From: Burkholderiaceae bacterium
GTDB taxonomy: Bacteria > Pseudomonadota > Gammaproteobacteria > Burkholderiales > Burkholderiaceae_E
NCBI GenBank assembly: GCA_021166725.1
Contig: JAJPES010000065.1
Coordinates: 20,962 to 84,961, forward strand
Length of the DNA stretch: 64,000 bases
Reading direction: 5' to 3'
Below, piece by piece: positions 7,959 through 60,574 of the stretch. The notes beneath the pieces are model-generated. The model was not told where the DNA came from and ran no database searches. It saw nothing but the letters and a program-made list of their open reading frames with translations. Numbering within the stretch: position 1 is the stretch's first letter; each line of letters opens with the position of its first letter. A program made the position numbers and the translations under genes.

Positions 7959-8123
7959 CTAGGAGGCTGTCGGACTATGGACAGGGGTCGCGGTGGTGGC
8001 CGAAAACCCCCGGGGCCAGGCCCGGGTTCGGGGGGGAGGCGGGTGTATGGAACGGCGTGGGGCACCCCCCCACCCCCCGCCCCCCCCGCCCCCCCCCCTG
8101 TCCATAGTCCGAGAGCCTCCTAG
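7959..8123. mobile_element. 165-bp MITE-like element with ~26-bp terminal inverted repeats and CTAG at both ends
   Basis: Left AGGAGGCTGTCGGACTATGGACAGGG (from 7961) against right CCCTGTCCATAGTCCGAGAGCCTCCT: 25/26 complementary; CTAG at 7959-7962 and 8120-8123; no coding capacity. Confidence 0.7.
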
Positions 8124-8509
8124 ATAACCGGACCCGGGTCGTCGGGCGTGGACGGGCCCGGACCGGGCATGGCGATGGGCGCGTCGTCGCGCGCACCCGC
8201 CGAACGGCCGGCCGCTGCTTCCGACGCGTCGGAGGTCGTGCCGGCCTGCGCGGCGCCCCCCTCCGAGGCGCTCGCACCCGGCGCCTCGGCGTCGAGGCGC
8301 TGCTCGAGCGTTGCGATGCGTTCCTGCAGGCGCGACATGCGCTCGAGCTGCGCGTCGAACTCGTCGCGCGTGACGAGATCGACGCGCTGGAAAGTCTGCG
8401 CGAGCATCGCTTTCAGGTTGCGCTCGATGTCGGCCGCGGGGCTGTTGCGGAACAGATCGGAGACGCGCTGTTGCAGCTCGGCGAGCAGCGATTGCGGTGT
8501 CGTGTTCAT
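8120..8509 (-). CDS. ubiK: ubiquinone biosynthesis accessory factor UbiK (BMFP/YqiC family)
   Basis: LLAELQQRVSDLFRNSPAADIERNLKAMLAQTFQRVDLVTRDEFDAQLERMSRLQERIATLEQRL. Confidence 0.88.
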   Translation of the reverse strand: MNTTPQSLLAELQQRVSDLFRNSPAADIERNLKAMLAQTFQRVDLVTRDEFDAQLERMSRLQERIATLEQRLDAEAPGASASEGGAAQAGTTSDASEAAAGRSAGARDDAPIAMPGPGPSTPDDPGPVI

Positions 8510-58512: not shown

Positions 58513-58819
58513 CAATGCCTTGCACCCCGCGCCGCCAATCGCGATACTCCCACCCGCGCATCAAGAAGGGCCCCGCCCCTGCCAACCTGCCCGCCCGGGC
58601 AAGGTGGTTCGCGAAAGCGGATGCGGCCAACCTCGGCAACCAAACGGGTGAACGAATGAACGAGCCTTCCTCCCTGCGCCCCCGCGCCTGACCGCGCGCG
58701 AGCCCCGCACCACTTCCGAATACACGCAGCACGCCCGACCCACGTCACGGGTCCGGGGGATTTGATCCCGCTTGCGGCCCCGGGCACATCGCCGAAGCCG
58801 CTAAAGAGGAGCACCACGA

Positions 58820-60574
58820 ATGCGCACCCACGCGCTTCGCAGCCTGGCCCTGCACGGCCTCGACCACCTCGACGCGGTCGTCGTCGCCGCGCTCGCCTCC
58901 GAAGAGCCGCTGCTGCTCGTCGGCCCGCACGGCAGCGCCAAGTCGGCGCTGCTCAACCGCATCGGCGCCGCGCTCGGCCTCGAGCATCGCCACTACAACG
59001 TCGGTGCAGTGTTTCACGCTATCCGCCACTTACGGGCCGCGCCTTTGCCCACGGAGCCGCGTTGCGAATCCTCGCCATGCCGCCCGGCATGGCTGTGGTT
59101 CGCGCCTTGCTCCGCGGGCAAATCCGCTGGCCCATAAGCGGCGCATGGCGTGAAACACTGCACTGCCCTGGTCTCCTTCGACGACCTGCTCGGCTCCCCG
59201 CGGCCGAACGAGGCACGCACCGAACTGCAATACCTGCGCACGCCGGCCACGCTGTGGGACGCGGAGTCGGTGTTCCTCGACGAGATCTCGCGCTGCCGCC
59301 CCGAGGTGCAGAACAAGCTCTTCTCGATCGTGCACGAGCGGCGCGTGATGGGCGTGGCGCTCGAGCGGCTGCGCTACCGCTGGGCGGCGATGAATCCACC
59401 GGCGGCCTTCGATGCGACGGGCGACATCGACGACGCGTATCTCGGCTCGCAGCCGCTCGACCCCGCGCTCGCCGATCGCTTCGCGTTCATCGTCGAGTTG
59501 CCGACGATGGCGGAGATGACGCCGGCCGATCGACGTCGGCTGATCGCGCACGGCGACGACTTCGCACCGGCCCCGATGCCTCCGCTGCGCGCCCTCGTCG
59601 ACGCCGCCCATGAGCGCCAGCGCCTGTCGCTCGAAGCCTTCGACGACTGGGTCGTCGGCTACGTCGACTCGCTGGTCGCGCCGCTCGCCGAAGCCGGCCT
59701 GCCGATGTCGGGCCGACGCGCCGCGATGCTGCGCCGGTCGATCCACTTCGTGCACGGCGCGCGCGAAGCGCTCGGCTGCGCGAAGAAGAACCGCCCGAGC
59801 CAGGCGCAAGCAACGCCGAACGGCGAGACCCCCGAGCCAACCTGCACGATCGACGACTCCGCCCTCGAAGCGCTGCGCTGGGGCCTGCCGCACCGCGCGC
59901 GCGGCCGCGCGGCGTGGCAAGAGTCGACGCTGCTCGCGCTGCACCGGCACGCGGTCGAGCTCGCGGGCGAACCGCTCGGCTCGCCGCTCGCGCGCCTGCG
60001 CAACGAGCCGAACCCGGTGCGCCGCATCGCGCTCGCGCTCGCGATGCCCGCAGGAACGCTGTCGCGCACCGCGTTCTCCGCGCTCGTCGCCGACGCGTGT
60101 GCCGCGCAGGACGTCGCCGGCCGCTACCTGCTCGCGCGCCGCCTGCTGCCCGTGCTCGCCGAGCGCGACACGGCGAACGCGCCCACGCTCGAGATGCTCG
60201 CCGAGCCGCTCGGCCGCGTGCTCGACTTCGAGCGCGACGCGACGCACCGCTTGCAGCTCACGCGCGCCGAGGTGACGCGTTACAACGAGCTGCTCGCCGT
60301 GCTCGCGAAGCTCGACGCGTCCGACGAGCGCGAGGCGTCGCTCGGCAACGTGCTCTACACGCTCTTCGCTGTCGAGCACGCGAGTTTCGATGCGAAGGAA
60401 GTGATCGCGCGCGACGCGCAGTTCGCGCGATGGTTCGCACAGTGCCTGGAGAAGACGGCGGACGACGCGGCGAAGCCAAGCTCGCGCGCGAACCCACCGC
60501 GTCCGAAGGAAGGCGGGACGACGCCGAAGCCCACGCGCGCCGCTGCCCGCTCCGCCACCACGAAGGTGGCCTGA
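58820..60574 (+). pseudogene. MoxR-type AAA ATPase gene interrupted by a hairpin element (single in-frame TAA at 59135-59137); downstream part also open as 59150-60574
   Basis: LLVGPHGSAKSALLNRIGAALGLEHRHYN | element | ALVSFDDLLGSPRPNEARTELQYLRTPATLWDAESVFLDEISRCRPEVQNKLFSIVHERRV; both halves in the same reading frame. Confidence 0.85.
59004..59163. mobile_element. ~160-bp foldback/MITE-like element, nearly palindromic over its whole length
   Basis: Ends GTGCAGTGTTTCACGC...GCGTGAAACACTGCAC exact; inverted homology continues to a central GCCATGCCgcccGGCATGGC; interrupts a conserved AAA sequence. Confidence 0.78.

Follow-up and report, generated by a model that had tools for sequence, protein, structure and literature searches.

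A foldback element within a MoxR-type ATPase gene carries a covarying core hairpin that occurs with the ends of two transposase families

MITEs are normally viewed as deletion remnants of a single parental IS. Those derived from IS630/Tc1-mariner elements are known, e.g. Correia/NEMIS of Neisseria and Nezha of cyanobacteria. The element analysed here resembles such IS630-derived MITEs (~100–160 bp, IS630-type terminal inverted repeats (TIRs), TA duplication, non-coding, dispersed), but differs from them in a central hairpin which is conserved across genera and is common to IS5-ended elements. Similarly, part of the family built on this hairpin has the IS5 TIRs and CTAG/YTAR flanks of IS5-family MITEs, although the core is the same as in the IS630-ended elements. 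Rickettsia palindromic elements are palindromes lying in phase inside genes. The insert described here shares this in-phase position within a gene but, unlike them, introduces a stop codon and is bounded by IS ends. REP/BIME elements consist of a palindrome of 20–40 nt with a GTAG-type tag and are associated with a RAYT gene. Another repeat of betaproteobacteria, BRE, is ~90 bp long, is arranged in tandem in Bordetella, is partly transcribed and in some cases lies inside genes (Hot et al. 2011, PMC3110155). Compared by description, BRE has hosts overlapping with those of the core (Polaromonas, Delftia, Bordetella, Acidovorax) but is set apart by its ~90-bp length, its tandem arrangement in Bordetella and the lack of described TIRs (PMC3110155). 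Tandem cores were searched for in four genomes, including a Bordetella MAG, and none was seen. BRE could not be identified with the core from the published description (PMC3110155). MITEs have also been reported in Polaromonas JS666 (Mattes et al. 2008, as cited in PMC10969869), and the core occurs in the same genus (L134, L152 and L197). A search of the literature, of partial coverage, with strings of the core sequence matched only unrelated works and yielded no report of the core.

The window, i.e. the whole stretch of DNA analysed, comprises 64,000 nucleotides from a Burkholderiaceae bacterium. The features of the locus within it are as follows.

58820–59137, + strand: N-terminal part of a MoxR-type AAA ATPase with Walker A, running into the element up to the TAA
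59150–60574, + strand: C-terminal part of the ATPase with Walker B (AAA_5, 28.5 bits), with a possible GTG restart within the element
59002–59003, no strand: left presumed 2-bp target duplication (CG here, consensus TA)
59004–59163, no strand: type-A foldback element of 160 bp, best read as a non-autonomous IS630-type MITE
59004–59019, + strand: left TIR, matching the TIR of IS630 elements in the genomes G005 and G012
59053–59114, no strand: conserved covarying core hairpin of 62 nt (favoured folding strand at this copy: −)
59074–59093, no strand: central stem-loop GCCATGCC-GCCC-GGCATGGC inside the core
59148–59163, − strand: right TIR
59164–59165, no strand: right presumed 2-bp target duplication (TG here, consensus TA)

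A preliminary description had called the segment a near-perfect foldback with exact inverted ends of 16 bp. These ends (GTGCAGTGTTTCACGC at 59004–59019 and GCGTGAAACACTGCAC at 59148–59163) were found again, and the element folds along its whole length, although the label was slightly generous: the outer 44-nt arms are complementary at 82% of positions and the whole 160 bp is 78% identical to its own reverse complement. RNA folding, which had been proposed as a check, gave −118.9 kcal/mol for the + strand and −126.5 kcal/mol for the − strand (z ~ −12), and none of 200 shuffled sequences folded as well. The element contains no transposase gene, is short and occurs in several copies, as an IS630-type MITE does. 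Rfam 15 returned nothing above the gathering score for the 160 bp, only sub-threshold microRNA look-alikes, and the comparison with annotated plasmids and phages gave no match. Another foldback lies in the window at 7961–8124 (ends AGGAGGCTGTCGGACTATGG/CCATAGTCCGAGAGCCTCCTAG, MFE −120); its end sequence adjoins type-B elements (see below) elsewhere in the genome (L006, L008 and L009).

The proposed in-phase insertion into a MoxR-type AAA gene was confirmed by the comparison with relatives. Four congeneric genomes (G012, G009, G013 and G007) have the gene uninterrupted, with the empty site HYN-ASLVSFD. The closest of them, G012, shows 97% protein identity over the N-terminal part and 92–96% DNA identity of the flanks. 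The distance from AAC to CTGGTCTCC (CTCGTCTCC in G012) is 6 nt in the empty and 168 nt in the filled site; the insert is 162 bp, which corresponds to the 160-bp element plus a 2-bp duplication and is a multiple of three. The segment is absent from the homologues and is therefore not a spacer conserved among them. An artefact of assembly is hardly credible as the source of the insert: the assembly is fragmented and repeats lie at contig ends, but this element lies within its contig, differs by at least 14% from every other copy and is flanked on both sides by the relatives' coding sequence, so that a false join is unlikely.

The reading frame from ATG 58820 crosses the element and, as had been observed from the sequence, is blocked by a single TAA (59135–59137), the same frame continuing beyond it; GTG 59150, located 12 nt after the stop, is the start of an ORF of 474 aa, the remainder of which is intact. 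Walker A (GPHGSAKS) is on the N-terminal part, whose bpMoxR match is weak (22.1 bits, below the cut-off of 27), and Walker B (VFLDE) is on the C-terminal part. Of the fates considered earlier for the ATPase (dead, split or expressed by bypass), loss is the most likely, since the insertion has left the two Walker motifs on different ORFs. Neither half would be expected to work as an ATPase, and the interrupted gene is most likely dead. An in-frame palindrome might instead be tolerated, as in Rickettsia, or read-through or restart might leave the ATPase active, for which the preserved frame, the only stop and the nearby GTG with its intact ORF could be quoted. We consider this improbable because a stop codon is nevertheless present, the Walker motifs are separated, an insertion would be in phase by chance in one case of three anyway, and translation would be impeded by the −119 kcal/mol hairpin in the mRNA. 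As a gene disruption, the interruption is in itself ordinary. A SAM-I/IV riboswitch lies immediately upstream of the interrupted gene (window 58553–58653, + strand; 57.4 bits, cut-off 41.1), and the MoxR gene is preceded by the same riboswitch in four congeneric genomes (55–61 bits). A MoxR operon preceded by a SAM riboswitch is a combination that we did not expect.

A search for other copies of the 160 bp, which had also been suggested, was positive in both the host genome and its genus. Three full copies are present in the host genome, four in G005 and one in G009, in addition to 45-bp deletion forms and solitary ends. The two other host copies are 79–81% and the G005 copies 83–86% identical to 59004–59163, and no close copy (>86% identity) was among those found. 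The ends of the element (TA|GTGCAGTGTT...) agree with the terminal repeats that intact IS630-family (Tc1/mariner) elements carry in sister genomes, the match being limited to ~13 nt at each end. The TIRs of these IS630 elements, which lie inside CTAG, are TAGTGTAGTGTTCG.../...GCAACACTGCACTA in G005 and TAGTGCAGTGTTGC.../...AGAACACTACACTA in G012. A DDE_3 transposase is present in both genomes, and the one in G012 is an intact IS630 transposase of 375 aa (NF033545, 272 bits). No DDE_3/IS630 transposase was detected in the host assembly, which is 89% complete. In the wider family, TA flanks 36 of the 59 IS630-type copies on either side, in most cases as part of CTAG; the presumed duplicates at the insertion in MoxR differ from each other (CG/TG).

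Dispersed copies, empty sites, matching terminal repeats and the TA duplications of family copies thus all bear out the earlier term "MITE-like", although it missed a very large family with a covarying core and the ends of two transposase families. The best reading of these sequence comparisons is that 59004–59163 is an IS630-type MITE mobilised in trans, the helper being now missing from this genome. As no IS630 transposase could be detected in the host assembly, the copy is probably a stranded one. The non-identical target duplication and the lack of a close copy indicate either an old insertion or the loss of its source. A transposase supplied in trans would have inserted the 160-bp element at a CTAG-like YR site; the insert adds 162 bp in phase and parts Walker A from Walker B within the gene. 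We have high confidence in the overall interpretation that a non-autonomous IS630-type miniature element was inserted in trans into MoxR and that it belongs to a modular family with exchangeable ends and a fold under selection.

In G005 and G009, GGTGCTTGCCCCCGCTTCGCGGGGG-type hairpins, a further repeat, lie next to several of the A copies (flanks of L011, L018, L016 and L020). Elements of type B, a second foldback type in the host genome (ends CTAGTACGCCGACCC) which has other arms and the same centre, were found to abut precisely on the terminus of a mini type-A element or on a solitary A end, with the CTAG shared (L038:1500-1720 in G000 C42 and L036:1500-1700 in G012 C25). These arrangements are nested or adjacent insertions.

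The element is one of a large family of ~160-bp foldbacks built on one conserved hairpin core. The central ~62 nt form a conserved, strongly covarying hairpin, whose central stem GCCATGCC/GGCATGGC is replaced by CATAGC/GCTATG and GCGATGCC/GGCATCGC in other copies. When 16 cores drawn from several genera were aligned, 95.7% of the cells of 22 pairs were paired and 11 of these pairs changed on both sides; the covariation score was 0.387 compared with 0.135 for shuffled alignments (0 of 500 reached it). Pairing was kept at 96–100% in both the middle and the central stem of 97 ungapped cores, with GC/CG/AT exchanges, and the letters of the internal loop (GCA opposite GA, bulged A) were nearly invariant. 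The ~62-nt core is absent from Rfam. According to the covariance model R1, whose E-values are rough, the core occurs in 104 of the 300 Burkholderiales genomes sampled (about one third) and in 65 of 134 genera. It was found in 65 of 369 genomes of the class and, at stricter E-values, in 29 of 399 genomes of the phylum, being sparser in other Pseudomonadota. The core counts per genome are to be read as "at least", and the named records carrying the core are nearly all Burkholderiales. In some distant relatives, inverted pairs of cores ~105 bp apart with a BIME-like arrangement were observed (G530 C37:65459-65626, G530 C8:6679-6846 and G630 C66:494-661).

The ends of most core elements are of the IS630 type. 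A second kind of IS630 TIR, TAGTGTCCTGTCCCG, is shared by core elements and IS630s with annotated transposases on plasmids of Methylibium and Cupriavidus. Another large group has GGGCAACGCTGAACAAGTC-like ends. The genome G061 contains both an intact IS5-family IS (1,174 bp; NF033581, 335.6 bits) flanked by GGGCAACGCTGAACAAG ends and core elements with IS5-type GGGAAACGCTGAACAAGTC ends; it is the one genome in which this end class was linked to a transposase. A match to the IS5-type end on a Variovorax plasmid had no IS annotated between the ends, and a search for a mobiliser of the type B (TAGTACGCC) ends found none. Elements of both end classes are 158–163 bp long, with one exception of 189 bp, both classes lie in CTAG/YTAR sites, and the core consensus is identical in the two groups. 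Because the IS630- and IS5-ended groups share length and core consensus, the core is tied to no single transposase. With IS630 or IS5 terminal repeats on different members, it would be independent of the enzyme, a structural module that swaps its ends in the course of evolution; the shared site choice of IS630 and IS5 may have helped this exchange. Core elements with asymmetric ends CCTAAATCCGGCAGTTG... / ...CACCCAAAAGGTGA were also found (L103, L161, L188 and L206); these may represent a third type of mobile end.

The palindromic structure, the intergenic repeats and the inverted paired copies in some distant genomes would fit a REP/BIME-type element with a RAYT (Y1) transposase as its mover. 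We give this explanation very little credence and set it aside, since the elements are ~160 bp long instead of 20–40 nt and have the TIRs of DDE IS, matching IS630, with TA duplication.

The fold also showed a preference for one strand. For this comparison, sequences with similar arms were pooled, which gave 29 clusters. Arm G·U pairs were commoner on the strand GGCGCAAACC...GATTTGCAAC (3.5 vs 1.5 per element), and 22 of the 29 clusters favoured this strand and 5 the other (p 3e-4, an optimistic value since clusters share ancestry). The same strand folds more stably (p 1e-5, the clusters being not fully independent). These two biases suggest that selection acts on the element in single-stranded form, either as RNA or as ssDNA. 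One conserved core pair (columns 11–53), which is C·A on the favoured strand and G·T on the other, counts against this interpretation. The orientation of the elements relative to genes showed no clear bias (12 and 14 tandem, 16 convergent, 7 divergent), and thus no link to neighbouring transcription.

The core could also be an inert leftover of one founding MITE, kept by descent and supplied with new ends by nested CTAG insertion and deletion. The occurrence of both IS630 and IS5 copies in CTAG/YTAR and the adjacent and nested elements within one genome (L038 and L036) are in agreement with such a history. Nevertheless, compensatory stem changes around invariant loop letters across many genera, strand-biased G·U pairs and a constant length would not be expected of inert DNA, and we consider it unlikely. 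The core would most likely be kept via selection on the single-stranded fold, RNA or ssDNA, of GGCGCAAACC-GCAGC...GCGAGGATTTGCAAC. Tentatively, at somewhat less than even chances, the core may be a selected structured nucleic acid defining modular foldbacks throughout Pseudomonadota which take different DDE ends, the lasting unit then being the hairpin rather than the IS.

The interesting part of these results, beyond the disruption of a gene, is the shared covarying core with exchangeable ends. One core of constant size is combined with the ends of two unrelated transposase families across a whole order and beyond. If this view is true, the interior of such an element would be a functional module, and a single covariance model would suffice to annotate a class of repeats that is large and apparently undescribed.
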